A DNA stretch of 24,995 nt from a virus. The stretch covers positions 1-24,995 of IMG/VR virus record IMGVR_UViG_3300020197_001067; one strand, written 5' to 3'. Within the stretch, counting starts at the first letter, position 1, and every line of letters starts with the position of its first letter. Shown here piece after piece: positions 6,667-23,411 of this stretch. The notes below the pieces were generated by a model. The model saw only the letters and a program-made list of their open reading frames with translations. It was not told the DNA's origin and did not search any database. The translations under genes were made by a program, and so were the position numbers.

Positions 6667-7003
6667 TTCGATAACTATCCTCATCAAGATGCTGAGTTGA
6701 GAACTCAAACAACTCAGCATCTTCAAGTGCAAGCATTTGATGTCTTAGTCCTCTGGGAACGTGAAACTTATCACCCTTAACTAAGACTAAATGATTTGCA
6801 TTTCCAAAATCATCATTGACTCCATAGTAAAGACGAATTGCTCCAGACTGAACATAAAAAGTTTCATCCTTTAGTTTATGATAGTGATAGGAACATCTCC
6901 TATCCTTAAGAATGAAAAGAAGTTTTCCACAATATTCTTCACTATTGGCAATCCACTTTTCATATCCCCATCCTTTGGGAACAAATTTAATATCTTCAGT
7001 CAT
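6638..7003 (-). CDS. Cupin-domain protein (phosphomannose-isomerase-like C-terminal domain)
   Basis: 121 aa, one cupin barrel. Metal ligands of motif 1 are H40, H42 and E47 (CSYHYHKLKDETF) and motif 2 gives H88 (VPRGLRHQM); the string ELFEFSTQHLDEDSYR is typical of small cupins next to nucleotide-sugar genes. The start GWGYEKWI resembles the type II mannose-6-phosphate isomerase C-terminal domain. It overlaps the oxygenase by ATGA (7000-7003), so it is the last gene of the operon. A role as sugar isomerase or sugar-phosphate binding protein in glycan synthesis is inference; no such short cupin has a fixed activity I can assign. Confidence 0.85.
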   Translation of the reverse strand: MTEDIKFVPKGWGYEKWIANSEEYCGKLLFILKDRRCSYHYHKLKDETFYVQSGAIRLYYGVNDDFGNANHLVLVKGDKFHVPRGLRHQMLALEDAELFEFSTQHLDEDSYRIIPGDILQL

Positions 7004-7602
7004 ACAAAATTAGGTCCTCTGCTCCAACCCACTAAAGTTTTACGAACACCTTTTGTCACAGGTGCTACTCTATGTAGGAGATAAGATGGAAACACAATAA
7101 TTTGTCCTTTCTTTAAGCGATATGATACTGGTTCTGGACCTAACCAAAACTGAAGTTCTCCACCTTCATATTCAGATTCATCATTTAATCCTGCACTGAA
7201 AGAAAGTTTCCTTACGTGCTGTTGCCCGCCACGAACTGATGCATCAATATGCCAAGTGTAATGTCCGTTATCTTCTGCAGGATATTCACTGTACTGAAAG
7301 GACTCAAATCCATATAAAGAATATTTGTAGCAATGATCATTAACGTGAGTTATAATGTTTGATAGTTCTTTATAAAGATAATCAAACTTTTTATCCTCAG
7401 CAAGCCACATTATCCTAGAACTTCTAAGTTCTAAGCTTCCATCATTACCTCTTGGATCAACTGTTCTTCCATCAAGTAATTGATCTTTATGAGACTGAAC
7501 GTAGAATTCTATTTTCGAAATAGTAAGAGAATCTAATTTCTTGATAGACTCAATAATCCAACTTGAGTTATCATCTTCTCGATCAAACGAAAAATATATC
7601 AT
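7000..7602 (-). CDS. 2-oxoglutarate/Fe(II)-dependent oxygenase (prolyl-4-hydroxylase-like)
   Basis: 200 aa. The iron triad is H118-x-D120 (YTWHIDAS) and H177 (SYLLHRVAPV); R187 (GVRKTLVGW) should bind 2-oxoglutarate. The double-stranded beta-helix core spans about residues 95-196, with YEGGELQFW as the usual strand before the second His. Family members hydroxylate proteins or small molecules using O2 and 2-oxoglutarate. GAGGAG sits 6 bases before the ATG, which lies inside the end of the phosphatase gene (20-base overlap). Its place inside a sugar operon suggests it hydroxylates a sugar or a glycoprotein, which is inference. Confidence 0.9.
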   Translation of the reverse strand: MIYFSFDREDDNSSWIIESIKKLDSLTISKIEFYVQSHKDQLLDGRTVDPRGNDGSLELRSSRIMWLAEDKKFDYLYKELSNIITHVNDHCYKYSLYGFESFQYSEYPAEDNGHYTWHIDASVRGGQQHVRKLSFSAGLNDESEYEGGELQFWLGPEPVSYRLKKGQIIVFPSYLLHRVAPVTKGVRKTLVGWSRGPNFV

Positions 7603-7927
7603 CCTTTACTCCTCTATCATCAATATAATAGTCTGCTGCTGGTTTACCCATATGCAGTTCATGAAACTTACAACCCCATGATTTAAGTTGATCAAATGTT
7701 AAGTTGTAAAACTCTTTATGCGCTAACATTCGAGAATTCGAATGTCTACCCATACCTCTAGCGGTTAGATAGATGATTGTATGTCCTTCATCATATAACC
7801 TATTGATTTTTTCTATTCGATCTATCTTAGGCACTGAGTGAGAATAATCTCCATCGTGCAACATATCTTTAGGTTTATCACAGATCGTCCCATCGATATC
7901 GACGCAGTATGTTGACATCTTCATCAT
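7583..7927 (-). CDS. HAD-superfamily sugar phosphatase (GmhB-type role likely)
   Basis: 114 aa, a minimal HAD fold without cap. Motif I DIDGT has nucleophile D10 and D12; motif II is YLTARG (T55); motif III/IV is GKPAADYYIDDRG, with K95 and D103/D104. This resembles the small capsule-type HAD phosphatases. Beside an HldE kinase it would remove the 7-phosphate of heptose-1,7-bisphosphate (GmhB step), but it is much shorter than canonical GmhB (about 190 aa), so the substrate is inference. Three ATG codons are possible (7927, 7924 and 7918); MSTYCVDIDGT from 7918 would be enough. It overlaps the kinase gene by up to 50 bases. Confidence 0.85.
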   Translation of the reverse strand: MMKMSTYCVDIDGTICDKPKDMLHDGDYSHSVPKIDRIEKINRLYDEGHTIIYLTARGMGRHSNSRMLAHKEFYNLTFDQLKSWGCKFHELHMGKPAADYYIDDRGVKDDIFFV

Positions 7928-8666
7928 TTAATACGTAGGTTCCTGGATGTTGGACAGCAATTGCTGCTGCCTTGTTTGCAAACAGTATAGCATGGTGAAT
8001 GTTATTTGTCATCAGATAATAATAAGTCAGAGCAGCAAGAAAGGTGTCTCCTGCTCCAACAACATCAAATACATTAACTTTATCACCTTTATAAAGTTTA
8101 TCTTTATACAATGCTCCTCTTTCTCCAAGGGTCACAATTAAGTTTTCTGGTCTACCTCTAAGTTTTTTATATTCAGTTTCATTAATTTTAATAAAACAAT
8201 GTGGAGCATCGGGAAGATTTACCTTTTTAGTATCAACAAAAATGGGACACATATAGGTTTCTACAATCTCAAGTAACTTATCAAGAGTCAAAAATCCCTT
8301 ACCGTAATCAGAAACAACTACGGCATCAAAGTTTTCTTCAGGAAGAAATCCACGATAATGTGAAACGATTTCACCATCATCAACTCTTAAAAGGTGATGA
8401 TTATATCGTTGATCAACATATCGCGTTTTAGTAATCTTTTCTTCATTCGTTAAATGAACAACGTCAATATTAAATGATCTAAGATTTGCAAGAACATTTG
8501 CAGACATTCCCATTCTAACTTCTCTTTTTTTAAAGTTAAGAACTGGAACAGGAGATTCTGGATTTAGACGAGTACACTCACCATAAACAAACTCATCAAA
8601 GCAAGTCTCTCCGATCAATAATACTCTGAATGATGTTTGTTGTTGAGAAGTTAGGAATTCGATCAT
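7878..8666 (-). CDS. hldE: HldE N-terminal type heptose-7-phosphate kinase (ribokinase family)
   Basis: 262 aa; matches the kinase half of HldE/RfaE. Motifs in order: LLIGETCFDEFVYG (16-29), RLNPESPVPV (33-42, the HldE signature), a substrate-site Met/Ser/Ala/Asn stretch MGMSANVLANL, VVSDYGKGFL (117-126), VTLGERGALY (178-187) and the catalytic VVGAGDTF (202-209, anion hole GAGD, base D207). It phosphorylates D-glycero-beta-D-manno-heptose-7-phosphate at C1. The bacterial kinase domain is about 315 aa, so it is a compact version. Its first 71 bases overlap the adenylyltransferase gene. GGAG lies 12 bases before ATG. Substrate inferred from motifs and neighbours. Confidence 0.93.
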   Translation of the reverse strand: MIEFLTSQQQTSFRVLLIGETCFDEFVYGECTRLNPESPVPVLNFKKREVRMGMSANVLANLRSFNIDVVHLTNEEKITKTRYVDQRYNHHLLRVDDGEIVSHYRGFLPEENFDAVVVSDYGKGFLTLDKLLEIVETYMCPIFVDTKKVNLPDAPHCFIKINETEYKKLRGRPENLIVTLGERGALYKDKLYKGDKVNVFDVVGAGDTFLAALTYYYLMTNNIHHAILFANKAAAIAVQHPGTYVLNDEDVNILRRYRWDDL

Positions 8667-9006
8667 AAAAAATTAACTCCTTTGCAAATTGAGATCCTAT
8701 AATTTCTTTGCCTTTCCAATCAGATCCTACTACCATTACATCTGGGCTTACTCGATGAACAAGATCCTCCAATCCATCATCACTTAAGAATGTGACCACC
8801 TCATCAACTGGTCGAAGATTAAGAAGCAAAAACATTCTTTCACGTTCATTGTGAATTGGTCGTCCTGGACCTTTGAGTTCCTTCACTCGACTATCAGCAT
8901 CTAGACCAACGACAAGATGGTCTCCCTGTTGCCTGGCAAAATTCAGTAAATCGATGTGACCTACGTGAACTAAATCAAAAGTTCCGTTAACAAATACTTT
9001 TTTCAT
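8596..9006 (-). CDS. hldE: HldE C-terminal type heptose-1-phosphate adenylyltransferase
   Basis: 136 aa, nucleotidyltransferase of the HxGH superfamily. HVGH (14-17) sits in VNGTFDLVHVGH, followed by GLDADSRVKELKGPGRP (35-51) and the HldE signature STTNII (122-127). It joins a nucleotide (ADP in E. coli HldE) to heptose-1-phosphate. The nucleotide cannot be told from sequence: related HxGH enzymes use CTP. In E. coli both activities are one protein with the kinase first; here they are two proteins, in the reverse gene order, with a 71-base overlap. It starts with ATGA overlap with the carbamoyltransferase. Confidence 0.93.
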   Translation of the reverse strand: MKKVFVNGTFDLVHVGHIDLLNFARQQGDHLVVGLDADSRVKELKGPGRPIHNERERMFLLLNLRPVDEVVTFLSDDGLEDLVHRVSPDVMVVGSDWKGKEIIGSQFAKELIFYDRIPNFSTTNIIQSIIDRRDLL

Positions 9007-10748
9007 AGTTGATTTGGTACTGTAATTAACTTATTAATTTCGGGAAGATAAAGATACTTTATTTCACTATATCTTAATGTTCTGAATGCATCATCAATAG
9101 TTTCTACAATAGTATCTCCAGCAAGATTAAATGATGTGTTAAAAAGAACAGGCACTCCTGTCATTTTATGAAACTCAGAGATTAGGTCATAGTAATTTTT
9201 ATTCTGCTCTCTCTTAAGAGTTTGCACTCTACAAGTTCCATCAACGTGTGTGATGGCAGGAATTTCTTTTTGTTTTTCTGGTAATACATCAATAGCATAC
9301 ATCATATATGGACTTTCGTCAAGTCTATCCATATCAAACCATTCTTTAGAATGTTCGTATAAGACAGTTCCAGCAAAAGGTCTAAAGTATTCTCTCTTCT
9401 TAACTCGATTTACAATATTTTTTCCATCAGGATGACGTGGATCAAACAGAATCGAACGATTGCCCAATGCTCTTGGTCCTGCTTCAGATCTTCCCTGTGC
9501 AAGAGCAACAATGTTGCCATCAACTAATAGTTGTGCAACTTCTGCAGGGATAACTTCTCTTTCAGATTCTCCTTCATTCAGTACATAATCATATTTCATT
9601 TGCTGACCAAGATAAAGATCTTTGATTTTTAATTCATTTTGACGTTCTGGATATGCTTTTGATACTAAATTAAAAGCAGCACCCATCGAAACTCCACAAT
9701 CTGCAGAGATTGGCTCCACAAAAAGATTTACATCAGATGGCAAACTCTTAAGTAACTTATAATTAGCAACACAATTTAGAGCGCAACCACCAGATAAAAC
9801 TAAATTTTTGCAATTAGAAATAGTTAATGCTTTATGGCAAAGATGTAGTAGATATTCTTCATATTCTTTTTGGACTTTATGAGCAAAATTTCTTCTTCTG
9901 CGTTCTAGTTCTTCTTCATCTACCTCACCAGGTTTAGCAAGAGTTTTAATATGAGAAATTTCACTGGTGAAATTTAAAATTTCACCAGATCCTATAGGTG
10001 CTCCAACAGAAATATAATCATATGGTTTAAGTGCAACTCCAACATTATCAATGTAATCCATACTCAGGATACCAAATCTTTGCGGAACTCCACCAAGTTT
10101 GGTTAACATAGGTTTGATATTTTTGTCCTCTTCACCATATGGAGCAAGACCCATTGTCTTCCCACATTCCAAACCCTTCCACCCTAACCATTGAGTAGCA
10201 GCAGCATAAATCATTCCAGGACCAATAGTTTGTTTGGGATTAACGTACTTTGGCACTGATAAATTTCTTATACTTTTTACGTTTTCTTTACCTACTATAG
10301 ATTGATATAAAATTTCAGGTTCTGGATTATGAGAATTTCTAACCATTTTAAATATGGTTTCATTCTCTTTACCATAATCATAATCAGATCCAGCACCATC
10401 AAGAACTACAACAACTGCTTCATCAAAATCTGAATGATAGAACGCACAAGAAGCGTGTAATGAATGGTGTGGTTCTGCTTTTCGAATGTCTACAACTTTA
10501 TCAAGACCACACATATAGTCAACGTACTTAATGTACACTGAAGGATCAGTATTTTCATCCCACAGGTGTGTATAATAACAGTAATCTATATGTTTTGTAT
10601 ATTGTTTTATAAGTTGTAAAGCAACTAACGGAATACGATCTTGCTTTTCGTGAGTCAACCTTTCTTCTTCGAGATGAAGGACAACCTCAGTGTCCTTCAT
10701 CAACGTTACTGCAGCATTATGATGAATATGAAATGATAAAAACCACAT
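9003..10748 (-). CDS. Carbamoyltransferase, NodU/TobZ/CmcH family (copy 2)
   Basis: 581 aa, full length for the family. The Kae1-like half has HHNAA (9-13), the metal ligands HHSLH (94-98) and D117 in VVLDGAGSD, GKTMGLAPYG (196-205) and LSGGCALNCVAN (318-329). The C-terminal carbamoyl-transfer half has GRSEAGPRALGNRS (419-432), FRPFAG (455-460) and NTSFNLAGD (537-545). These enzymes use carbamoyl phosphate and ATP to put a carbamoyl group on a sugar hydroxyl. It starts two bases after the stop of copy 1 (TGATAATG), so the two are coupled. Substrate probably the glycan made by this operon; the two copies may act at different positions. Confidence 0.95.
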   Translation of the reverse strand: MWFLSFHIHHNAAVTLMKDTEVVLHLEEERLTHEKQDRIPLVALQLIKQYTKHIDYCYYTHLWDENTDPSVYIKYVDYMCGLDKVVDIRKAEPHHSLHASCAFYHSDFDEAVVVVLDGAGSDYDYGKENETIFKMVRNSHNPEPEILYQSIVGKENVKSIRNLSVPKYVNPKQTIGPGMIYAAATQWLGWKGLECGKTMGLAPYGEEDKNIKPMLTKLGGVPQRFGILSMDYIDNVGVALKPYDYISVGAPIGSGEILNFTSEISHIKTLAKPGEVDEEELERRRRNFAHKVQKEYEEYLLHLCHKALTISNCKNLVLSGGCALNCVANYKLLKSLPSDVNLFVEPISADCGVSMGAAFNLVSKAYPERQNELKIKDLYLGQQMKYDYVLNEGESEREVIPAEVAQLLVDGNIVALAQGRSEAGPRALGNRSILFDPRHPDGKNIVNRVKKREYFRPFAGTVLYEHSKEWFDMDRLDESPYMMYAIDVLPEKQKEIPAITHVDGTCRVQTLKREQNKNYYDLISEFHKMTGVPVLFNTSFNLAGDTIVETIDDAFRTLRYSEIKYLYLPEINKLITVPNQL

Positions 10749-10750
10749 TA

Positions 10751-12433
10751 TCAGTTAGGAACATAAACCAGTTTCTGAATTTCGGGGAGATACATATACT
10801 CAATATCACTGGTGCGAAGAGTCAATAAAGCATCCTCAAGAGTCTCAACGAGTGGATCTCCACCAAGATTAAAACTAGTATTAAAAAGGATGGGAACTTC
10901 AGTGATCTTATCGAAAGCATCAATAAGATTATAGTAATGTTCGTTTTGTTCTGGAGTTACAGTCTGAATGCGGCAAGTTCCATCAACGTGAATTACCGAA
11001 GGAATCTTTTCCTCGACACCATCAAGGCATTTGACAGCGTACATCATGTAAGGAGTTTCTTCACGTCCAGCAAGATCAAACCATTCGTGAACTGCCTCTT
11101 TCTTGATCGAACAAGCAAATGGACGGAACCATTCACGACGCTTCACTGTATTAACGATCTCTTTACCGTTAGGAACAGTTGGATCAAACAGAATCGAACG
11201 GTTGCCGAGAGCACGAGGACCACCTTCAGAACGACCCTGATAGATTGTTACAATATTCCCATCACGAATTAGTTGTGCAACATCATCATAAGAAGTATCA
11301 GAAACTTCATATCCATCAAGTTCATCCAAATATGAGTCAGTATCATACTGAGGGCCATAATAAACAGATGCCTGAGTAGAAGGTTCAGTATTATCAGTCA
11401 GTTGATTCCAAAGATACTTAGCACCACCAATCGAAGTTCCACCATCGTGAGAGATTGGTTCACAGTAGATGTTCAGATCAGGGAACGCTTGCCAGTACTT
11501 ATAGTTTGCAACACAGTTCAGACCATATCCACCACAAACAACAATGTCTGTTTCACCAGTTTCTTCATATGCTCTCTGAATCAACTGAATCATACGATTT
11601 TCAGTTGCTTCCTGAACAGCATATGCCATATCTTTTTGGATCTGAGTATATTCACCTTTTTTATGATTCGCAACATCATCTCTCAGAATTGGAAAACGAG
11701 TTGTATTGATGCGAGCAGCGTTAGGATATGTTGGAATAATCAGTTCACGATTGCCCCACTCACCACTAAAGAAAGGAGGAAGTTCAGGATTCGGAGATCC
11801 ATAAGGAGCAAGACCCATCAGTTTACCTGCCTCAATAGCAGGGAAACCACAATACTCAGTCACTGCCTCATACATTTTTGTATGACCAGGATACTCAGTT
11901 GCAAAAACATTAGGTTGAGTTTCGTGGCATCCAATAGAAGCTTTGGTTCCTAGATGCTTGTAAACGATCTCAAAGTTTTTTGGATAAGATGCTTTAAAAA
12001 TAGTCTCAAACTCATAGAAGGTATCATTAACACCATCCATCTGTAAGAAACTACCTGCACCATCTGCAATTACACAGGCAGCAGACTCAAATCCTGAGTT
12101 ATAAAATCCACAAGCAGCGTGCATCTCGTGGTGAATTGTATCAATAAAATGAGTCTCAAAATCAAATTTCTTTCGAGCGATCTTACGAATCAATCCCTGA
12201 TAAAGATCATCACCACACCAGTCAAGAACTGGTCCGTGACGATGGGTATGGCAAACTACAAGATGATCAATATGGTCAACGTAATCGAATACTTTAAGAA
12301 GTCCCATCAAGGGAGATCCATCGTACTTAAAGCGAGAGAGTCTTTCTTCCTCAAGATAGAATACAATCTCACCATCAACCATAAGCGTGGTGCTTGCATT
12401 GTGACCACGAGCACAAGAAACGATAACGGTCAT
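10751..12433 (-). CDS. Carbamoyltransferase, NodU/TobZ/CmcH family (copy 1)
   Basis: 560 aa, same domain layout as its downstream paralog: GHNAS (10-14), metal ligands HHEMH (101-105) and D124 in IADGAGSF, GKLMGLAPYG (203-212), CGGYGLNCVAN (300-310), GRSEGGPRALGNRS (400-413), FRPFA (436-440) and NTSFNLGGD (518-526). By eye the two copies share their key motifs but differ over much of the rest, so they are old duplicates rather than a recent copy. ATG at 12433 has a good AAAGGA site five bases upstream. Expected activity: carbamoylation of a sugar hydroxyl from carbamoyl phosphate and ATP; the acceptor is unknown. Confidence 0.95.
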   Translation of the reverse strand: MTVIVSCARGHNASTTLMVDGEIVFYLEEERLSRFKYDGSPLMGLLKVFDYVDHIDHLVVCHTHRHGPVLDWCGDDLYQGLIRKIARKKFDFETHFIDTIHHEMHAACGFYNSGFESAACVIADGAGSFLQMDGVNDTFYEFETIFKASYPKNFEIVYKHLGTKASIGCHETQPNVFATEYPGHTKMYEAVTEYCGFPAIEAGKLMGLAPYGSPNPELPPFFSGEWGNRELIIPTYPNAARINTTRFPILRDDVANHKKGEYTQIQKDMAYAVQEATENRMIQLIQRAYEETGETDIVVCGGYGLNCVANYKYWQAFPDLNIYCEPISHDGGTSIGGAKYLWNQLTDNTEPSTQASVYYGPQYDTDSYLDELDGYEVSDTSYDDVAQLIRDGNIVTIYQGRSEGGPRALGNRSILFDPTVPNGKEIVNTVKRREWFRPFACSIKKEAVHEWFDLAGREETPYMMYAVKCLDGVEEKIPSVIHVDGTCRIQTVTPEQNEHYYNLIDAFDKITEVPILFNTSFNLGGDPLVETLEDALLTLRTSDIEYMYLPEIQKLVYVPN

Positions 12434-12446
12434 ATCAATCCTTTAA

Positions 12447-13619
12447 TTAATTTTTAACAGTGTCTAGAAATCCAGATGGTTTTTTACCATTACTTTTAAT
12501 ATTACCTGATGATTTAATCAATTCCTCAACGGCACTAGTTTTTTTAGGGATGTCCATTACTGGACTTATTGCTTGTGAAACCTCAGATGCTCCTTTAAAT
12601 TGAGGTGCTGATTGTTGTGGATCACATCCTTGAGGACCACATTGTTGATTTGGAAGAACGATTACCTCTTCCTTTTTAACATAAAACTTTTTCATCAACT
12701 TATCAACACTCTCAACAACCACATCTTCGATTTTTCCATTCATTGCCATTATACCATCATTATTCCTGAATGTCACTTCGTCGGCAGTAATACGAATAGG
12801 ATCGTAAATACGAAGTCCTTCACCCATATCAAGAACCTCAAACTTATCACAGTTGGGATAACTGATATTTTCTTTACAAGTGGATCCAACAACTACTACA
12901 GCAGGAACTTCTTGAGAATATGCAATGTGTTGTCCAACAGAATCACACCCAAGAAGAAGATCTGCCTCAGCAATAATTGCTGCCCATTGCCTCAGATCAA
13001 TTCCTGCAGGAGTCGCAACGGGATCTTTACAACCTTCTTTCGAAAGGTCAATACTAAACTCACTCATAAAGATTACTGCATAACCTTTCTTTTGGAGTTT
13101 CTTCACAATCGAAAGAACATTCGCAAGTTCGAAACTTCTACCGCCAGCGTCAGTAATGAAGTTACCCATCATCTGAGCACCACGCCCGAATGGTTGGAAA
13201 ACTACAACCTTACTTTTTTTAGTTGCTTGGCGAACTTCTTCGAGAACAAACTTTGCCTGAATCATTTCTTGGCGAGAAAGTTTAATCGATGGTTTTGGAA
13301 GTTCTCTAACTCCTTTATTATTAATCTGAATATCAAATGCTTGACTCAGATTGCACTTTTGATTATAATATTCCCAGATACGATATGGTTCTGTTGTAAC
13401 CACATTACGCATTTGAATATGACTTCTAAACAGGTCTTTATGCCAGTTATCGTACACTCTGGGATAAAGATCTGTATGTCCCTTAAAGAAATCTGTTCCA
13501 CCTTCAGCAACAATAATAAAGTCGTCTTCGGGATGTTCTTCTTTATATTTCTCAAATGCTGGAATTGAGCAAATGACACGCCCAGCTCCGCCGTTTACAA
13601 AAAACGCAGTCGATCTCAT
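12447..13619 (-). CDS. GT9-like (heptosyltransferase-type) glycosyltransferase
   Basis: 390 aa, GT-B fold of the ADP-heptose:LPS heptosyltransferase kind. GGAGRVICSIPAFEKY (9-24) is the N-terminal motif, then FQPFGRGAQMMGNF (161-174) and the donor-site stretch ADLLLGCDSVGQHIAYS, followed by VPAVVVVGST. Residues after about 325 form a disordered, Lys/Ser/Gln-rich tail with NQQCGPQGCDPQQSAPQF. It should transfer a sugar from an ADP-heptose-like donor; acceptor unknown. First gene of the operon; the ATG has a CGAGGCGAG ribosome site, and two overlapping promoters lie upstream. Other GT9-fold roles are possible, since the donor-binding residues are not fully diagnostic. Confidence 0.85.
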   Translation of the reverse strand: MRSTAFFVNGGAGRVICSIPAFEKYKEEHPEDDFIIVAEGGTDFFKGHTDLYPRVYDNWHKDLFRSHIQMRNVVTTEPYRIWEYYNQKCNLSQAFDIQINNKGVRELPKPSIKLSRQEMIQAKFVLEEVRQATKKSKVVVFQPFGRGAQMMGNFITDAGGRSFELANVLSIVKKLQKKGYAVIFMSEFSIDLSKEGCKDPVATPAGIDLRQWAAIIAEADLLLGCDSVGQHIAYSQEVPAVVVVGSTCKENISYPNCDKFEVLDMGEGLRIYDPIRITADEVTFRNNDGIMAMNGKIEDVVVESVDKLMKKFYVKKEEVIVLPNQQCGPQGCDPQQSAPQFKGASEVSQAISPVMDIPKKTSAVEELIKSSGNIKSNGKKPSGFLDTVKN

Positions 13620-13744: not shown

Positions 13745-14713
13745 TTATTCTTCTACTGGTGCAACCTTTGTCCAATCTGGCATTCCAGGCATTCTTCCTG
13801 CTTCTTCATCAGTTTCATTCTCAGGTGGAATAACGTTAAAAACTGCTGTGGTTCCCATTGCAACACGTGTTCCTAATTCACCTTCATCAACTCTCTCGGT
13901 TGGAGAAGAAACTATGATATAAGCACCCTTATCATCAGTTACTAACTGACCTTCATTAACAACTTTTGCTTCAGGATCTGGAGGTGGAAGATTTCCAGAA
14001 TCAGGGTCTCTGTTGACAAAATTTGGCCATTCTGGATTAAGTCTTGGATCGTCTGGGAATGGAACCATCCAAGGAGTATCTAACCAAGCACCAAATTTAG
14101 TTGGAACCTTTTGCAATTCTGCAACAAAATTATCCCACTGTTCTCTTTGGTCTTCAGTCCACTTATTTTGATCATAATGTCCCTGAATTTGAATAGCATC
14201 TTCAATAGTTACTTTGTAATTCCACTCAAACTCTTGTCTGATGATGTGAGGAATTTTCCATGGATATGGTTTTTTCCATCTTTTTAGTTTAAGATCATAT
14301 TCACAATCAGCAATCTCGATTGTGTGATCTGGAACTGTGGGATGAGGTCTTTCATAAAACAGTTCTTTTGTTTCTGGATGAAGATACTTTTTAGTTGGAA
14401 GATCTTTCATCTCAGGTGCAAGTTGTGCAATCGCAGATAAAAGAAGAGGATCATCGTCAAAAGTAATCAGAGCTGGATATGAATTAAATCCAGTATACTC
14501 TTCTAAAAACTCATATTGTGTTTCAGGATTTTCATCATCATACTCTCTAAATGATTCTCTTGCTAGAATCTTATTAGTTTTATAATCAACAAAAACCCAA
14601 ATTTTTTCTGGACCATCATAGGTCCACTGCGCTTTTAAACCTAGAGTGCTTTCATTCGAAAGATACTCATCTGGTAAATCGTATTGAAACGCTTTACGAA
14701 TATGCTTAGCCAT
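13745..14713 (-). CDS. Virion-associated protein with a tail-assembly-chaperone-like segment
   Basis: 322 aa, acidic and rich in Pro, Trp and Glu; no membrane segment. Residues 190-250 (WTEDQREQWDNFVAELQKVP, then LDTPWMVPFPDDP) look like the phage tail assembly chaperone pattern (W..yr..L..iP....WP..P; Pfam PF16778), which is usually encoded next to a fibre gene. The first half (PDEYLSNESTL, AQWTYDGPEKIWVFVD) and the Pro/Asp-rich linker before the C-terminal domain do not match anything I recognise. It follows the three Cys-rich fibre genes in one operon and is closed by a terminator. A role in folding or attaching those fibres is inference; it may be structural itself. Confidence 0.75.
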   Translation of the reverse strand: MAKHIRKAFQYDLPDEYLSNESTLGLKAQWTYDGPEKIWVFVDYKTNKILARESFREYDDENPETQYEFLEEYTGFNSYPALITFDDDPLLLSAIAQLAPEMKDLPTKKYLHPETKELFYERPHPTVPDHTIEIADCEYDLKLKRWKKPYPWKIPHIIRQEFEWNYKVTIEDAIQIQGHYDQNKWTEDQREQWDNFVAELQKVPTKFGAWLDTPWMVPFPDDPRLNPEWPNFVNRDPDSGNLPPPDPEAKVVNEGQLVTDDKGAYIIVSSPTERVDEGELGTRVAMGTTAVFNVIPPENETDEEAGRMPGMPDWTKVAPVEE

Positions 14714-14734: not shown

Positions 14735-14742
14735 TATTTATC
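14735..14742 (-). promoter_or_regulatory. T4-type late promoter motif (GATAAATA)
   Basis: GATAAATA on the minus strand, 22 bases before the ATG of the 322-aa gene, overlapping the stop codon of the upstream gene. Confidence 0.55.
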
Positions 14743-15691
14743 AAATCCAGTTAACAGTAATTCTAGCAGCTCCTGCTCTTCCAGCAGTTCCACAGCAACA
14801 GTTATTAGATCCACATGTTGCACCAGATCCACCAGGGAATCCAGGAACATATCCTGTCCTATCACCACCACCGAAACCAACTGAATTCATAGCACCGCAT
14901 GTAGCAAAATATGAACATGTTACATTTTCACACACTGGAACAGAAACATGTCCACCTTGCTCATTCACCAATCCACCAGGATAAGCAAAGTGCATACGAT
15001 TCATTTCTCTACATTGTGTCCACTGATAAAGAGTTGCTGCGCTTGGTAATCCAAAAGCACCATAATCAGCACCAAAATAAAGAGCGCAACACCCAGTACA
15101 AGCAGTTCCAAATCCAGCAATACCAAAACATCCACCATATGCTCTTTGCTCACATCCTGCAGCGGGGCCGCCCATTGCAACAATCCATTCACTACCATAA
15201 CCAAAACATAAATGACAATATGTACATCCAGGGAATCCACCATCTGCACAGAAATTAGAAAGACCTGATCCCGTAATAAATGCTTTACAACCTCTATTTC
15301 CAGTATCACCAGGGACTCTACAAGCAATTCCACCAACGCAAATATTATAAGCAGTCCCAGAAGCAACACCAGTAACTGTTTTGCGAGCATAAGCACCAGC
15401 ACCACCAGGAACACCAATCATACAGCAGCAAGCGCCTGCGCCGCCGCCACCACCTCCCCAGATTTCAAAGGTGATTACAGTGGTTCCAGTGCCTGTAGGT
15501 GATCCAGGAACTCTCCAGCACTGATATTCCGAACCCATACAAGTATATGAAGTGTCAGCGGCATCACATGATCCGCACCTATGCATCATAAACCAGGTGG
15601 ATTGACCTTGTCTCAAATTACCAATACCACCAGAATAAATTCCTACAAGTTCGGTACTTTGTGTTCCTAATAAGTTTCTAAGATTAGACAT
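14741..15691 (-). CDS. Cys/Gly-rich fibre/adhesin-like protein (paralog 3)
   Basis: 316 aa with 27 cysteines by my count (about 8.5%). N-terminus MSNLRNLLG, shared in kind with the two upstream paralogs. At about residue 74 begins FEIWGGGGGGAGACCC, then GCKAFITGSGLSNFCADGG near 133-151, and a C-terminal Gly-rich domain (YVPGFPGGSGATC, NCCCG, GRAGAARITV). Gly-rich domains of this sort occur in tail-fibre tips and in the T4-type gp38 adhesins; the very high Cys content is not part of those families. No signal peptide. A late promoter motif lies 25 bases upstream. Predicted location: virion surface, by context. Function not known. Confidence 0.8.
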   Translation of the reverse strand: MSNLRNLLGTQSTELVGIYSGGIGNLRQGQSTWFMMHRCGSCDAADTSYTCMGSEYQCWRVPGSPTGTGTTVITFEIWGGGGGGAGACCCMIGVPGGAGAYARKTVTGVASGTAYNICVGGIACRVPGDTGNRGCKAFITGSGLSNFCADGGFPGCTYCHLCFGYGSEWIVAMGGPAAGCEQRAYGGCFGIAGFGTACTGCCALYFGADYGAFGLPSAATLYQWTQCREMNRMHFAYPGGLVNEQGGHVSVPVCENVTCSYFATCGAMNSVGFGGGDRTGYVPGFPGGSGATCGSNNCCCGTAGRAGAARITVNWI

Positions 15692-15715
15692 TCTTTGTTT
15701 CGCTCTCTTATAGGA

Positions 15716-15723
15716 TATTTATC
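15716..15723 (-). promoter_or_regulatory. T4-type late promoter motif (GATAAATA)
   Basis: GATAAATA on the minus strand, 25 bases before the ATG of paralog 3, overlapping the stop codon of paralog 2. Confidence 0.55.
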
Positions 15724-16774
15724 ATTTAAATGTAATTTTGACCAGTCCTCTTGATCCACGCCAACCATAGCAGCAAGGACCACCACAAGAAGTTGCTGAT
15801 GGAGCACCTTGCCCCCACATACCTCTTCCACAAACATCTCCAGTCATTTCACCCCAGATACAAGAACCAAATTCATTAATACAAGAATTACCCTCATTTT
15901 TCACTACAACGTGCCTTGTGCATTGGTCACGAACTCCACCAGGCTGTGCAATTCCAAGACAAACCCAGCAAGTGTCTCCACAAGCACAGTTTACGCGGAA
16001 CCAACCAAGTTTTCCACCAACGTGATAGTCTCCACCATATCCACAAGCACAATCACACCAGAAAAATCCGTCAGGTGGGAAAATATAACAACCAGGACCA
16101 CCACCAACAGTTGTATTTGTTGCTGCTGATCTTAATTCGTGAGCACTACAAGCAGGCCCATATGTTGGAGATGATCCACCAGAATACCATACAAAGCAAC
16201 AAGTCTTACCAGGAAGTCCACCCTCTGCACAGAAGTTTGATAATCCGCAACCAGTGATGTATGATTTACATCCACGAATACCAGTGCAACACTGTGAGCA
16301 GCAAGTTGGAGGACCAACAAATACAAGATAGCAGAATCCACCTAGTGTTCCACCAGGAAAATCACATCCTCTTATAGTCTTACGTGCATAAGCACCAGCG
16401 CCACCAGGATTGCCTTGTTGGCAGCAACAAGCGCCGCCGCCTGATCCACCACCACCCCAGATCTCAAACGTAATCTGAGAGGTTCCAGGCATCGCACAGA
16501 ATGCTTGACACCAGCGGTTATAGTTTGCATTACAGTTTTCATTCCAACAATGTCCACCCCAGAACATTGTGAAACCATCTGGTTTATATGGTCCCCAAGC
16601 AGTTGCCCAAGAAGTGTTTACATCATTATGATAGATATTACCACCAATTCCTTTTTGTGGTGGATCAACCGAATGTTCCGCTCTTCTTGTAATTGTACTT
16701 GCCAATCCAGTCAGAGCATTACGTCTGAGGAGGTTAGAATTTTCAGTGTCTGTTAAACGTCTTAAATCTGCCAT
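15722..16774 (-). CDS. Cys/Gly-rich fibre/adhesin-like protein (paralog 2)
   Basis: 350 aa with 34 cysteines by my count (about 9.7%, the highest of the three). N-terminus MADLRRLTDTEN. FEIWGGGGSGGGACCC begins near residue 103, followed by GNPGGAGAYARK and GCKSYITGCGLSNFCAEGG, then Cys clusters such as CCSQCC and CDCACG. The C-terminus ends GSRGLVKITFK, a typical last strand of Gly-rich fibre domains. It follows paralog 1 after 11 bases, with GAGGT before the ATG and no promoter of its own, so the two are probably one transcript. Likely virion surface protein; Cys could form disulfides or bind metal. Confidence 0.8.
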   Translation of the reverse strand: MADLRRLTDTENSNLLRRNALTGLASTITRRAEHSVDPPQKGIGGNIYHNDVNTSWATAWGPYKPDGFTMFWGGHCWNENCNANYNRWCQAFCAMPGTSQITFEIWGGGGSGGGACCCQQGNPGGAGAYARKTIRGCDFPGGTLGGFCYLVFVGPPTCCSQCCTGIRGCKSYITGCGLSNFCAEGGLPGKTCCFVWYSGGSSPTYGPACSAHELRSAATNTTVGGGPGCYIFPPDGFFWCDCACGYGGDYHVGGKLGWFRVNCACGDTCWVCLGIAQPGGVRDQCTRHVVVKNEGNSCINEFGSCIWGEMTGDVCGRGMWGQGAPSATSCGGPCCYGWRGSRGLVKITFK

Positions 16775-16785
16775 TTTTGTTTACC

Positions 16786-17961
16786 TCATCCGTATGTAAT
16801 CTGAATCATTCCGCTGCCACCAGGTCCACCACAGTAGCAGTTATTACCACCAGTAGACGATGCACTCTTTCCACCAAATCCAGGTATATATGTATGGTGA
16901 GCATCATCAGACCCTTCACCACCACTTTGGAATCCCATCAGTGCTTTTGCGTGTTGATGAATACCTTGATAACCAGCGTTGTTCATATCCCATCTTGGAA
17001 TTGCAACCCATCCACCACGAGTATTAATCAAACCACCAGGATAAGGGTGAAGATCAGTGATCATACACCATTGACCAGCATCTTGATTATATGGAGAAGT
17101 GATCATTCCAGGTAGTCCATGTGCTCCACCATCAGCACCATAGAAAGGAGCACAATATGCCATTGGTGAGAAACAAGCGCCACCAAAACAATGATTGACT
17201 GGATGTCCTAAGAAGACTTCATTACAACAACTTAAATAAGTATTACCTTTATTATTAAATAATTTGGAATAAACAGAAACCTCAGGAAGTGCATCAGATA
17301 AGTAAGTTGCTCTTTGACCGATGCCGCCGCCTGGAGAAAAGCACGAATGCCCACAAATTAGATAATGAGGTCCACAAAAGAAGTCACAAGCCATCAATTT
17401 ACCCATCATAAAGTGACCAGCACCATCAGCACGGGTAAAAGCTGAAGAACAAGGGCTATAATCATTATTCCAACAGAAGCAACAACCATGTGATAATGCA
17501 CAGTGTGTCATCCCCCCCATACCACCTTCGGCACAGAAGTTACAAAGACCGTGCCCTACGATATATGATTTGCAACCTTGCTGTCCAAAATGATTTCCGT
17601 GTGGTAGGCAACACTGTCCTGTACCTAAACAAAATTCATAAGGACAACCAGTCAAATCACCATATTGCTCTGCACACAGAATTTTAAATGCATGAGCACC
17701 GCTCCCTCCAGGACCGCCCCACATGCAGCAACAACTACCACCACCAGATCCACCAGCTCCCCAAATCTCAAACTTAATAAAGCGAGTTCCTTTTGGAGCC
17801 TTCCACTTCATTGATGAATACTGGGGTTGATGGTTTACAGCACAATGCGTCATATAACGAATCTGCTTGTACTGAGAACCAATACGAGATGTAGTTAATC
17901 CTACGACCTGTTGGAAGGTAGTTGTATCAGCGTATGCGATTAAATCTCTTAGGTTTGCCAT
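16786..17961 (-). CDS. Cys/Gly-rich fibre/adhesin-like protein (paralog 1)
   Basis: 391 aa with 29 cysteines by my count (about 7.4%). N-terminus MANLRDLIAYADTT. FEIWGAGGSGGGSCCC begins near residue 64, then GCKSYIVGHGLCNFCAEGG, and a loop-rich centre holding His, Cys and Met (THCALSHGCCFCW). It ends GGPGGSGMIQITYG. The ribosome site AGGAGGAG is strong. No late promoter right upstream: it follows the 111-aa gene after 34 bases, so it likely shares that transcript. As for the other two paralogs, the fold is Gly-rich fibre-tip-like and the Cys content is unexplained. Confidence 0.8.
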   Translation of the reverse strand: MANLRDLIAYADTTTFQQVVGLTTSRIGSQYKQIRYMTHCAVNHQPQYSSMKWKAPKGTRFIKFEIWGAGGSGGGSCCCMWGGPGGSGAHAFKILCAEQYGDLTGCPYEFCLGTGQCCLPHGNHFGQQGCKSYIVGHGLCNFCAEGGMGGMTHCALSHGCCFCWNNDYSPCSSAFTRADGAGHFMMGKLMACDFFCGPHYLICGHSCFSPGGGIGQRATYLSDALPEVSVYSKLFNNKGNTYLSCCNEVFLGHPVNHCFGGACFSPMAYCAPFYGADGGAHGLPGMITSPYNQDAGQWCMITDLHPYPGGLINTRGGWVAIPRWDMNNAGYQGIHQHAKALMGFQSGGEGSDDAHHTYIPGFGGKSASSTGGNNCYCGGPGGSGMIQITYG

Positions 17962-17995: not shown

Positions 17996-18331
17996 TCAGG
18001 ACTTGAGTAATACCCAACCGTATGAAGCTCCAGTATAAAGAAGTTCTACAGAAGTATAAGGAACGTTAAGAGTGAGATTCTCATTTAGAGAAGCAATCTT
18101 AGTAATCGAAGTTGTAGTCCCAACGGTACAATTATATTGACCAAACCTACCATTTGGATCAACAACTGTAATTCTGTGCCCAATTACCGCATTTGCAGAA
18201 GTTGGAATGGTAACCGTGATTGGTCCACCAGTGGTATCAGCAAGAATCGTTTCGTTAGGATTTGCTGTATAATTTGTAGTGATTGCTACCAGAGTAGTGG
18301 TGGTAGTTGGCGTGGCGATAAAGCGTCCCAT
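17996..18331 (-). CDS. Small virion structural protein
   Basis: 111 aa, Thr-rich and beta-rich. After a Thr run (TPTTTTT) it has ANPNETILADTTGGPITVTIP and ends LYTGASYGWVLL. This TGGPITVTIP / GWVLL layout is common in phage tail-fibre tail domains, where a short beta unit caps the fibre. GGAG lies before ATG. It is the second gene after a late promoter (18715) and stands between the 106-aa gene and the Cys-rich paralogs. Specific role unknown. Confidence 0.75.
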   Translation of the reverse strand: MGRFIATPTTTTTLVAITTNYTANPNETILADTTGGPITVTIPTSANAVIGHRITVVDPNGRFGQYNCTVGTTTSITKIASLNENLTLNVPYTSVELLYTGASYGWVLLKS

Positions 18332-18349: not shown

Positions 18350-18670
18350 TTATGATACTAATTGTTCTACACCGTAAGCTGATACGGAAACATTTGGAGT
18401 GTCTGAGTACACAACCAATTGTTTACCAACATCCATAACCAATCCACTTCTCTCTAGAACACCGTTCGGTGCGATGTCGACGTCATACTCAATGAATTGA
18501 GCATTAGTTGGGGTTGCCCCTGTTGTAATAGCAACACGAACAGAAACATTTGTTGTATTTCTGTTGGCAACGTTCAGGTTCACATATGCTAAAGTAATGC
18601 TTGGAACACTGTATACTGTGGTATATGTTGTGGCAGCTAACGCAACTTGTCCTAAAATTCCTGATGCCAT
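18350..18670 (-). CDS. Small virion structural protein
   Basis: 106 aa, beta-rich, starting MASGILGQVALAATTYTTVY and with a repeat-like VNLNVANRNTTNVSVRVAITT strand pair; the sequence DIAPNGVLERSGLVMDVGKQLVVYS fits a small beta-sandwich. Proteins of this type are repeatedly present beside fibre genes in T4-like cyanophages, and the two beta domains of the 401-aa fibre protein have a similar layout (VFVGIAS...). ATG with GGAG 11 bases upstream and a perfect TATAAATA late motif 45 bases upstream. Role unknown, probably virion. Confidence 0.8.
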   Translation of the reverse strand: MASGILGQVALAATTYTTVYSVPSITLAYVNLNVANRNTTNVSVRVAITTGATPTNAQFIEYDVDIAPNGVLERSGLVMDVGKQLVVYSDTPNVSVSAYGVEQLVS

Positions 18671-18726: not shown

Positions 18727-21700
18727 TCAAGAGGTAGCAATCCAGTACGCAAATGCTCTTCCACCAAGAGTTTGAGCATCGACATATGTTTTAACTGCAA
18801 ACTCAGTTGGAACTGCAGTATTCGAGTTACCTGACATTGTTCCATCAGCAGAGAATTCACTGATTGCTTCACCAATTTGTCCACCAAGTGAACCCAGTCT
18901 CAGAGAAGTCAGACCCGAAAGATTAAACGCAGAAGCATTCAGAGTTGCACTACCAGTTGCCTGGTCAACAGCAAAGTAATTACCAACTCGGAAGTTACCA
19001 TCTTGGTCAGTGGTTACAAAGTAAACGCGTCCTGGAAATCCTTCGATCGTTTGGTTCCCCTGAATTGGTAACGTAATTGGTTTTGCTGGATAATTAGATT
19101 CTACTCTATTACCAATACCAATCTCAAGGAAATCGTGTCCAGTTAATCTAATTTGACTGTAATCATAACGAATCTTGAGGTCTTGTCCATCAAAGGCTGG
19201 ATTTACCTTCTCAATGTTTGTTCTAACAATTGCTGTACCACGAACAGTATCAACATTAAACGTTACTGCAGCACCTGCAACACCACCAATTTCAGTCCCA
19301 TCAATTGTAAGTTGTTGACCTTGAACATAATTAGATCCTGCAGTAGAAACTCCAAGATTATCAATATATCCTGTTGCACCGATACTTACATTTAAGAATC
19401 CACCAGTTCCAGTTGCACTTCCTGTTACGGCAACGCTTGGATATGTTCCTGTAGCACCAAGTGCTGATTGATGGTAAGTACCAGCATATCCTGCAATTCC
19501 AAACGTTGGAGCAACATAACTTGTTACAAGACTTATAACATATGCATTTGCATCAGATCCAATACCAGCAGTAATTGTTGATCCACTTCCTGCAGCAGGA
19601 CCATAAAGAGTTCCAGAAGTTCTTCTTGTTATTGGAGAGTCCGAAGTCACACCCACAAAACTAATACTTCCACGTGCTTTTGGTTGCTCAGTTAATCCTT
19701 TTAGTGGGAAGATGAATCCTTTAACTCCAGTTACAGCATCAGGATTATTGAGCAATCTTGCAGTTGCTCCTGTTCCAACCATTCCACCACCAATGAAGAT
19801 AACTTCATTTGGTCGGAAGGTTTCCATTCCAACAGGACGATAGAGAACTCTATTTGTAGATGGAATATCAAAAATAATTTTCCCAACTGCTCCAGAAGTC
19901 TCACCAGTGATAGCAGCACCAACAGTAACACCACCACCAACAATAACTAAACCACCAGTTGAATACTCAAGAAGTTCACCGTCAATTGCCGCTGGTTTAA
20001 ATGCTTCACTTTGACTATATCCTAAACTTACAGAACCCCATTCTCCATAAGAATTATTTCCATTCAGAGCACGAATAATACCACCGTTAGTAGCAAGGTA
20101 TCCATAATCACACCAGTAAGTAAATCCAGAAATAATCTCACACTTAGCATTATTATCTACCCAATACCCAATACCATTATCGGAAAGAACTGTGTAAGCG
20201 TGGAAAAGGCAACTCTTAAATGAACTCTGAATTCCAGTATATGCATTGCCATCAATATAAGCACCTATACATCCAGTGCCAATTCCAGTACATTCTTTAA
20301 CGTATGGTGACTTAAAATCAATTGGATTATTATCATCTAGAGTAATATAAACACCAGCTGGAGGATGTCTAAGTGTTCCTGTATCTGCTTTTAAAATATA
20401 TTGCGGATCGCTAGTTGTTTTAGCCCAACCAGTCATTCCTCTAAATGTCATCTCTGACAATGTGTTCGCATTATTTAACTTAAACATTACCCCAGTTGCT
20501 AGACCAGCATTTGCGGGTTCAATAAACACAACTCTTTGTGATGCACCTCTAATGTCTGTAAAAGCAGGGACAGTAATTGGAGTTTGTTCTGAATATACTC
20601 CAGCAGCAACATTAAGAACTGCAGGTGCTAGATTTAGAGATTGTATTTTTTGACAAGCGTATTTAATAGTTGCCCAAGGAGTTTCTGGTGTATTACCCCA
20701 AGTCTCCCAGTCTTGTCCAGTAAGTGCAGAAACATAATAATTATTTGGAGCATTTCCAAAATAATCCCAGATCGGATCTGATCCTGCAGATCTTAAAACA
20801 GTTCCAGTTGATCCAATTCCTAAAGCAATGACACCAGAAGAACTTCTAGTTAATAAATCACCCTGAACTGCAAGAACAGCACTAGCATCACCCTGAGCAA
20901 GTAATCCCCACTTACCTGTTGATGTAGTTGGAAGATTTCCTGTGTTAGAAGATGCAATCGAAACATAAGATGACTGAACGTAACTAACGACGTCGTTTAG
21001 TTGATATTCAGTTGCTGTTGCCCAAGTTCCAGCATAACGAAGACCATTAACAAGGAGTTGGAAATTATCAGTACTTGTAGATCCCAACCCTGCTGGAGTA
21101 CTAATGGCAGAAGTTGATGATGCTGTAGCAACATAAGTATTACCACCATATGTTACAAGAGTTCCATATTCGTATGTTGCATTATTTTGGAACGTTGTAA
21201 CTCCAGCAGTTGAAATACCTGTCGTCATTAAACGCCAGGCAGTACTTACACCAACAGCAGGTCTAATTCCTCTATTAACAGTTCCAGATCCGCCAGTAAT
21301 AATACCGACGTACATACTACCATTGTAATAAACAAAATCTCCATATTCATATTCTTGATCATATACCCATCCACCTTCACCATTATTTCCGCCAACATAT
21401 TCTACAGCATATGTTAAAGTAGCTACCCCAGAAGCAGACTTGTGAGGGAAGGTAACTCTATATTGATGATTTCCGTAAGCAAATACATCGTTAATAGAGT
21501 AAGTTGTTAATCCTACCCAATTGCCTCTATGTCTTAGACCCTCAACGTGAATTTGCCACCTAGGAGTTCCAATATTAAAGTCAGTCGAATACCATAGATC
21601 TTCTCTTGCAGCCGAAGTATGGTTGACTGTACAAACGTATGTATTGCCACCAAGTCGAACAATATCATCAATAACATATGCTGTAGATGGCTGCCATTCG

Positions 21701-21744
21701 CCTCTCCAGTTAAATTTTAATCTACCAAGTCTAAATTCTGCCAT
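18727..21744 (-). CDS. Large tail-fibre/tail-spike-like protein with repeated carbohydrate-binding-like motifs
   Basis: 1005 aa. The first ~265 residues carry five copies of a W...Y..(N/D)D.V.Y.G..Y motif: for example WRGEWQPSTAYVIDDIV, WVGLTTYSINDVFAYGN, WVYDQEYEYGDFVYYN, ATYEYGTLVTYGGNTYV and WATATEYQLNDVVSY, spaced about 55-60 residues, resembling CBM5/12-type carbohydrate binding units. The centre from about 335 (NNYYVSALTGQDWETWGNTP) looks like a right-handed beta-helix with the DxxPWxTIxxA pattern of tail spikes. The C-terminal part ends LSGLTSLRLGSLGGQIGE then VPTEFAVKTYVDAQ, typical of phage fibre ends. Probably binds a host or capsid-surface polysaccharide; no hydrolase motif seen. 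Confidence 0.85.
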   Translation of the reverse strand: MAEFRLGRLKFNWRGEWQPSTAYVIDDIVRLGGNTYVCTVNHTSAAREDLWYSTDFNIGTPRWQIHVEGLRHRGNWVGLTTYSINDVFAYGNHQYRVTFPHKSASGVATLTYAVEYVGGNNGEGGWVYDQEYEYGDFVYYNGSMYVGIITGGSGTVNRGIRPAVGVSTAWRLMTTGISTAGVTTFQNNATYEYGTLVTYGGNTYVATASSTSAISTPAGLGSTSTDNFQLLVNGLRYAGTWATATEYQLNDVVSYVQSSYVSIASSNTGNLPTTSTGKWGLLAQGDASAVLAVQGDLLTRSSSGVIALGIGSTGTVLRSAGSDPIWDYFGNAPNNYYVSALTGQDWETWGNTPETPWATIKYACQKIQSLNLAPAVLNVAAGVYSEQTPITVPAFTDIRGASQRVVFIEPANAGLATGVMFKLNNANTLSEMTFRGMTGWAKTTSDPQYILKADTGTLRHPPAGVYITLDDNNPIDFKSPYVKECTGIGTGCIGAYIDGNAYTGIQSSFKSCLFHAYTVLSDNGIGYWVDNNAKCEIISGFTYWCDYGYLATNGGIIRALNGNNSYGEWGSVSLGYSQSEAFKPAAIDGELLEYSTGGLVIVGGGVTVGAAITGETSGAVGKIIFDIPSTNRVLYRPVGMETFRPNEVIFIGGGMVGTGATARLLNNPDAVTGVKGFIFPLKGLTEQPKARGSISFVGVTSDSPITRRTSGTLYGPAAGSGSTITAGIGSDANAYVISLVTSYVAPTFGIAGYAGTYHQSALGATGTYPSVAVTGSATGTGGFLNVSIGATGYIDNLGVSTAGSNYVQGQQLTIDGTEIGGVAGAAVTFNVDTVRGTAIVRTNIEKVNPAFDGQDLKIRYDYSQIRLTGHDFLEIGIGNRVESNYPAKPITLPIQGNQTIEGFPGRVYFVTTDQDGNFRVGNYFAVDQATGSATLNASAFNLSGLTSLRLGSLGGQIGEAISEFSADGTMSGNSNTAVPTEFAVKTYVDAQTLGGRAFAYWIATS

Positions 21745-22679: not shown

Positions 22680-23411
22680 TTAGACAAAAGCAAAGTGAAT
22701 CCAACTAGTTGCGATATATTTTTTACCTTTTAAAGGAGGATTTCCTCGATGAGTATGAGTCCATTGAGATGGCCAAAGAACAACTCTACCTTTCTTTGGT
22801 TGAACTCTACGATGTTGATGAAGAAACTCTGTTTCACCACCTTCAACAACATCATTTAGATACAACATACTCACAAGATATCTTGTCGATGTCTGAATAC
22901 TTTCGACTTCATGGTGCCAAACGTGATATCCTTCACCTGGTTCAGTTTTCTGAATATTTACTGTATATTGAGCACCCTTCATATTATAAAGAATAGTATA
23001 TTTTTTAGCGTACTCAGCATAGCATTTTGCAATAATTTTATTGTATGAATCCAATACTCTTGTATTCATACTTACATTAAAACTATCTTGTTTTTGTTGA
23101 CTGGTCTCAAGAAAAACTGCTTCATCTTCAAGATGAAGAGCAGCCTTTTCCAACGATTGGGTATCACGGCGCATATAATGCCCATCAAATAAATTTTGAT
23201 TGGAATTTTTCATATTATGAAAAAAGTCAATCATATGAGTTCCATCAAAATCAGTATCAAAAACACCAATAAAATCGTCGCCAATATCGGCATTTAAAAT
23301 TCTATATTCCGATTGATTTGCTATCTCCATATAATTACCTTTCACAAAATCCTTATGGCGCTGCTGACCAGTCTGTACAACTCCAGTTTCCATCTCATTA
23401 ATATAAGTCAT
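22680..23411 (-). CDS. 2-oxoglutarate/Fe(II)-dependent oxygenase (P4H-like)
   Basis: 243 aa. The iron triad is H166-x-E168 (VWHHEVES; Glu replaces the more common Asp) and H221 (THTHRGNPP), with K230/K231 (GKKYIATSW) as the likely 2-oxoglutarate contact. ETEFLHQHRRVQPKKGRVVLWPS fits the P4H strand pattern. P4H-like oxygenases are frequent in T4-like cyanophages. Coupled to the 72-aa gene by TAATG. It precedes the 168-aa/fibre operon, so an effect on virion proteins or host proteins is possible but not shown. HxE instead of HxD is a notable variation. Confidence 0.9.
   Translation of the reverse strand: MTYINEMETGVVQTGQQRHKDFVKGNYMEIANQSEYRILNADIGDDFIGVFDTDFDGTHMIDFFHNMKNSNQNLFDGHYMRRDTQSLEKAALHLEDEAVFLETSQQKQDSFNVSMNTRVLDSYNKIIAKCYAEYAKKYTILYNMKGAQYTVNIQKTEPGEGYHVWHHEVESIQTSTRYLVSMLYLNDVVEGGETEFLHQHRRVQPKKGRVVLWPSQWTHTHRGNPPLKGKKYIATSWIHFAFV

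Follow-up and report, generated by a model that had tools for sequence, protein, structure and literature searches.

The three cysteine-rich genes, their family and their copy number

Analysis of the IMG/VR virus record IMGVR_UViG_3300020197_001067 (positions 1 to 24,995; the whole stretch of 24,995 nucleotides is referred to as the window) revealed three tandem genes on the minus strand, transcribed in the order A, B and C, whose products were rich in both cysteine and glycine (Table 1). A check of the open reading frames (ORFs) showed that the coordinates, lengths and cysteine counts given by an earlier sequence-only reading were exact, and the core FEIWG(G/A)GG...CCC plus GCKxxIxGxGLxNFCAxGG, which it had claimed as common to A, B and C, was present in their three-way alignment. 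Glycine made up 17-21% of the residues, and 19, 6 and 4 histidines were counted in A, B and C, respectively. The same measurement gave 0.2-2.1% cysteine for four other proteins of the window. In 675 syntenic neighbour ORFs cysteine never exceeded 3.76% (median 0.85%), and in 132 family proteins it ranged from 6.5 to 12.6% with a median of 9.9%; among the sequences scanned, 765 of 766 family matches kept at least 4.5%. The cysteine richness of the trio is not due to chance, because the neighbour ORFs stay far below it and the family matches keep it. We read the trio as an old and fixed three-part form, rich in cysteine, of a tail-fibre tip fold that is already known.

Table 1. Features of the tail-tip region in the window
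Feature	Position	Strand	Properties and evidence
Paralog A (position 1), cysteine/glycine-rich putative tip protein	16786..17961	-	391 residues, 29 Cys (7.4%), 68 Gly
Paralog B (position 2), predicted TG-fold tip protein	15722..16774	-	350 residues, 34 Cys (9.7%), 64 Gly
Paralog C (position 3), predicted TG-fold tip protein	14741..15691	-	316 residues, 27 Cys (8.5%), 66 Gly
Acidic protein, probable tail-fibre assembly chaperone	13745..14713	-	322 residues, 1 Cys; phrog_9740
Small protein between fibre and trio, possible adaptor	17996..18331	-	weak tail/baseplate PHROG matches; synteny conserved
Small tail-fibre-like protein between fibre and trio	18350..18670	-	phrog_11338 tail fiber, E 8.2e-10; synteny
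Tail fibre protein, possible shaft under the tip	18727..21744	-	1005 residues; phrog_9851 tail fiber protein, E 3.5e-243
Downstream GT9-type (heptosyltransferase-like) gene, constant neighbour	12447..13619	-	PF01075, E 8.1e-5, 22.5 bits, cut-off 22; synteny

Profile matches covering most of each protein (E-values of 1.5e-53 for A, 1.7e-51 for B and 9.2e-53 for C) identified the trio as members of the phrog_4205 family of T4-like cyanophages. This family was found in 5 of 13 named Kyanoviridae-type genomes, with three copies each in S-CAM1, S-CAM3, S-SSM7 and Sf-FS3 and two copies in P-SSM2. The PHROGs entry had no function attached. The sequence-only reading had called the family new, which holds only in that it is unnamed; it was already recorded in PHROGs and carried by these five phages. 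Scans of viral contigs yielded 12, 423, 36, 167 and 85 relatives per scan. From the scan with 85 relatives 79 loci were taken on, and because the best 80 of the 423 and the best 80 of the 167 were taken, close relatives are over-represented in the samples. One further relative came from a scan of a genome collection, an intact trio (L134); its contig, assigned to a Euryarchaeota metagenome-assembled genome, is probably a mis-binned cyanophage contig. A megablast comparison of the region with phages gave no match, the NCBIfam scan of the trio returned nothing, and PDB sequence searches with the 3-member and 85-member profiles returned nothing at E ≤ 1. No paper describing the phrog_4205 family was found in a literature search that excluded subscription papers and supplements.

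Gene number was counted in intact arrays with conserved flanks on both sides; 293 loci gave 187 intact arrays, of which 98 were non-redundant (<85% identity). The window, with both flanks lying within it, entered as an intact array. Three genes were present in 81 of the 98 arrays, two in 13, one in 3 and five in 1. When the arrays were sorted by N-terminal anchor, all 37 with the LRxLL anchor and all 33 with the SYKK anchor contained three genes, and all 7 of the P-SSM2 type contained two, while the other 21 contained three (11 arrays), two (6), one (3) or five (1). The LRxLL anchor was present in 308 of the 374 ORFs of the family; outside the family, 3 ORFs at those loci had it. The five-gene array (L118, 4276-10211), which also carried a sixth cysteine- and glycine-rich ORF under the hidden Markov model cut, was the sole expansion seen.

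For the tree, 131 loci were reduced to 114, then 109 and finally 44 non-redundant intact trios by dropping loci that did not have exactly three genes, had a short copy or were redundant. The genes of positions 1, 2 and 3 fell mostly into separate clades, and 127 of the 132 proteins had their closest relative from another phage at the same position; the five exceptions came from the divergent loci L116, L120 and L121. The tree thus indicates that the lineages of the three positions separated before the sampled phages diverged and that the trio does not consist of recent duplicates.

Predicted fold of the putative tip proteins

AlphaFold2 models were made for B (mean predicted local distance difference test score 75.8, predicted template modelling score 0.73) and C (78.5 and 0.79), and the statements on fold cover these two proteins. 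The closest solved relative found was gp24, the tail fibre of phage Pam3 (7ypx_A), which matched B with a Z score of 17.4 (189 residues, 2.9 Å) and C with a Z score of 16.6 (196 residues, 3.3 Å); Foldseek alone found the same structure for B at E 6.6e-5. The next match was the Bxb1 tail tip (9d93; Z 13.5 for B and 13.0 for C). It was followed at Z of about 8-10 by entries of the ALK/LTK TG domain, which has the same TNF-like and glycine-rich fold but is an animal receptor-kinase ectodomain with no functional link, and the remaining rows lay at about 4 and lower. Among predicted viral structures, the best matches for C were proteins of S-CAM3 and P-SSM2, and then many phage proteins labelled “Glycine-rich domain-containing”. 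The models therefore predict that B and C have the tail-fibre TG fold of the Pam3 gp24 type, a TNF-like β-sandwich with a glycine-rich bundle. The T4-type adhesin gp38 of phage S16 (6F45) also carries a glycine-rich bundle of extended helices at the fibre tip, according to two reports (PMC13243192, PMC9608196), but its middle domain differs. It was not among the matches listed for the two models, which is no evidence against that likeness.

Of 85 family members, 39 matched Pfam Gly_rich_2 (PF21722) at E ≤ 0.01, the best with E 2.8e-11, and family members of S-CAM1, S-CAM3, S-SSM7 and Sf-FS3 passed the curated cut-off of this profile. Profile against profile, the family and ordinary Gly_rich_2 proteins matched with only E 0.011 and a probability of 3.8. 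The ordinary proteins of S-SM1, S-RSM4, S-SSM5 and HTVC008M belong to the same domain family as the trio, and the S-SM1 and HTVC008M copies lie near tail or baseplate genes; unlike the trio, they have 0-2 cysteines, 29-33% glycine and one match each. Individually, no cysteine was found in those of S-SM1, S-RSM4 and HTVC008M, two in that of S-SSM5, two in another P-SSM2 protein, and two and nine in two Syn9 proteins. Six ordinary Kyanoviridae proteins together contained 0.3% cysteine and 29.6% glycine, the nine-cysteine Syn9 protein being left out of this average, compared with 9.7% and 17.7% in the phrog_4205 family. From these compositions, cysteine-rich and cysteine-poor forms of one domain occur in related phages. 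The preferred reading of A, B and C is that they are adhesins of the tail-fibre tip, with cysteine in place of much of the glycine. The receptor-binding tip proposed by the sequence-only reading is supported by the predicted fold, by the position behind the tail-fibre gene and by the chaperone-type neighbour.

Assembly of the putative tip and the role of its cysteines

The main text of the report on Pam3 describes gp24 as homotrimeric, with an N-terminal helix and with TNF-like and glycine-rich domains to which host recognition is ascribed; the chaperone gp25 folds it (PMC9608196). The gp24/gp25 system (PDB 7YPX, 7YFW) resembles the trio in its fold, N-terminal helix, chaperone and cyanobacterial host, but it has one gene, forms a homotrimer and contains 39% glycine in the glycine-rich domain, and the words cysteine and disulfide are absent from that main text (PMC9608196). 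An obligate hetero-oligomer is suggested for the trio because a fixed gene count, a shared anchor and divergent bodies are what it predicts, and an A:B:C heterotrimer would be its simplest form because the fold trimerises in Pam3. We consider that A, B and C are probably tail-fibre tip adhesins, most likely joined in one A:B:C heterotrimer with cysteine-cross-linked loops. Each paralog would be docked by a short N-terminal helix (M-x-x-L-R-x-L-L), followed by a TNF-like β-sandwich and, distally, a glycine-rich bundle with extended loops like that of Pam3 gp24, and the three diverged paralogs would assemble with the aid of the acidic protein encoded next. Cysteines in many former glycine places would most likely tie the loops together inside each subunit, and perhaps across subunits, to form a stiff tip, whose variable loops would hold on to a receptor at the surface of the cyanobacterium. 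The hetero-oligomeric tip raised by the sequence-only reading is made likelier by the fixed copy number, short of proof.

Both halves of this proposal have parallels elsewhere. The tripartite tail of the virophage DSLV2 is made from three consecutive genes as a 1:1:1 heterotrimer that binds Synechococcus, although it has a gp37-like fold and smaller proteins, does not belong to a tailed phage, and is described in a text in which the word cysteine is absent (PMC12724248). Many disulfides are reported to cross-link virion structural proteins of the phages Milano (PMC10811340) and 7-7-1 (PMC12796354), but the networks described there lie in the sheath, baseplate and capsid and not in the tip, and the 7-7-1 capsid proteins contain 2.58% cysteine (PMC12796354) compared with 7-10% in the trio.

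Cysteine columns of the alignment changed on shared tree branches 2.29 times as often as expected, whereas 14 other residues gave values of 1.06-1.37, and these shared changes fit coupled gain and loss of cysteines. Pairwise coupling in 85 rows reached a phi of 0.93, and once the tree was allowed for, 4 of the 2211 cysteine pairs remained. B93-B148 was the one pair that recurred in three analyses. No specific disulfide pairs are proposed, since the early coupling shrank with the tree and with a larger set of 339 sequences.

Several observations weigh against the cross-linked heterotrimeric tip. Some arrays depart from the three-gene count, those of the P-SSM2 type among the two-gene arrays. 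Distances between positions were congruent (r 0.82-0.90), which is also expected from simple linkage. On the window proteins Gly_rich_2 scored 22.9 bits for A (E 9.4e-5) and 10.5 bits for C, with no match for B, all under the 24.3-bit cut-off, and the acidic window protein had no Pfam match at E ≤ 1, including Phage_tail_APC. The literature search found no proteome of a phage carrying phrog_4205, and the proteome-studied phages S-SM1, Syn9 and S-PM2 are without the family. As for the cysteines, co-changes in the same direction (293) and in opposite directions (255) were nearly equal, and in the 339 sequences no cysteine pair reached a Jaccard index of 0.2 (maximum 0.19), whereas alanine and asparagine pairs reached 0.24 and 0.21. 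Cysteine totals were even in 21 of the 44 trios; the disulfide cross-linking put forward in the sequence-only reading thus gained modest statistical support from the co-changes but none from an excess of even numbers.

The alternative that survives best is that A, B and C each form homotrimers on different fibres or for different receptors, as a three-receptor arsenal; we regard it as unlikely. It agrees with the homotrimeric state of Pam3 gp24 in the report's main text (PMC9608196) and with the existence of one-copy and two-copy arrays. Moreover, in five loci (L113, L117, L126, L128 and L130) a chaperone-like gene separates copy 1 from copies 2-3, as it might if the copies were assembled separately, and a second such gene follows copy 3. 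However, three genes were present in 70 of 70 arrays with the LRxLL or SYKK anchor, the N-terminal anchor is common to the paralogs, and the losses and expansions that an arsenal should show were not found in these two groups.

Slightly less likely again is the possibility that most of the cysteines stay reduced as small core residues replacing glycine or serine, with one or two disulfides only. Phage proteins are synthesised inside the host cell, in its cytoplasm, odd cysteine totals were as frequent as even ones, and repeated co-change was found for B93-B148 only, all of which would suit reduced cysteines. Nevertheless, ordinary relatives with the same domain manage with 0-2 cysteines (nine in the second Syn9 protein), and the excess of shared changes was peculiar to cysteine.

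Binding of a metal (zinc, iron or copper) without disulfides, which the sequence-only reading had offered as a second possibility, became improbable. The very high cysteine content, the 2.09-fold enrichment of adjacent CC pairs over shuffles (785 compared with 376 in the 132 proteins) and the histidines of A would fit such a role. In metallothioneins and zinc ribbons CxC or CxxC is enriched, whereas in the same 132 proteins CxC and CxxC occurred at 0.87 and 0.94 of expectation; classic metal motifs are therefore absent. The few histidines in B and C also argue against metal, and the abundant tryptophan and tyrosine suit a folded β protein. On this modest evidence, sequence comparison favours disulfides over metal with moderate confidence. 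Receptor switching by three recent duplicates, also suggested by the sequence-only reading, is very improbable: the tandem arrangement fits it, as does the identity of A and C with those of locus L001 (77% each), lower than for GT9 (88%) and carbamoyltransferase (94%), but the tree contradicts it with three old lineages in a kept order, and A, B and C (B 86%) are about as variable as the tail fibre (81%).

Marine cyanophage receptor-binding proteins are mostly unannotated, and the trio offers a candidate, open to testing, for the tip that recognises the host in a large group of myoviruses of Synechococcus and Prochlorococcus, one scan having given 423 candidate relatives. An old, fixed, three-part tip is more interesting than a recent duplication. 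If the heterotrimer is true, one tip would present three distinct faces in each phage. If the disulfides are true, the tip, made in a reducing cytoplasm, would to our knowledge be among the most cysteine-dense parts of a virion and would bear on the maturation of tips and their persistence in open water. More tentatively, and with considerable doubt, a widespread cyanophage class may exist in which an obligate A:B:C heterotrimer of three TG-fold proteins of ancient divergence, C1q-like in design, forms the receptor-binding tip and the flexible poly-glycine bundle has given way to one held by dozens of disulfides. These would form only once the cell has lysed, making the tip redox-switched.

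Neighbouring genes

The locus has the order tail fibre, two small proteins, trio, acidic protein, GT9-type gene and carbamoyltransferase. Among the 31 loci listed, some of which end early, the tail fibre was present in 26, the acidic chaperone-like gene in 20, and GT9 together with carbamoyltransferase in 30. Seven relatives of the acidic protein were compared with Phage_tail_APC (PF16778, cut-off 26.6); those of L117 (30.1 bits) and L130 (29.0 bits) passed, two scored 24.8 and three had no match. Judging from these relatives and its place in the locus, the acidic protein most likely serves as an assembly chaperone. Four stretches of the tail fibre match the carbohydrate-binding module CBM_5_12.

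The conserved block downstream of the adhesins contains two tandem NodU-like carbamoyltransferases (9003-10748 and 10751-12433) beside the GT9-type gene, and heptose-pathway-like genes at 7583-9006. A cupin-domain protein is encoded at 6638-7003, and in S-CAM1 and P-SSM2 genes of the equivalent block carry the label “cysteine dioxygenase”, which is curious beside cysteine-rich proteins. Pfam matches placed 2-oxoglutarate-Fe(II) oxygenase genes on both flanks of the tail-tip region (22680-23411 and 7000-7602), and in L001 a gene judged by eye to be of this type (10018-10590) directly follows the chaperone-like gene. In L126, L128 and L130, GT9 and carbamoyltransferase lie downstream of the array on the opposite strand.

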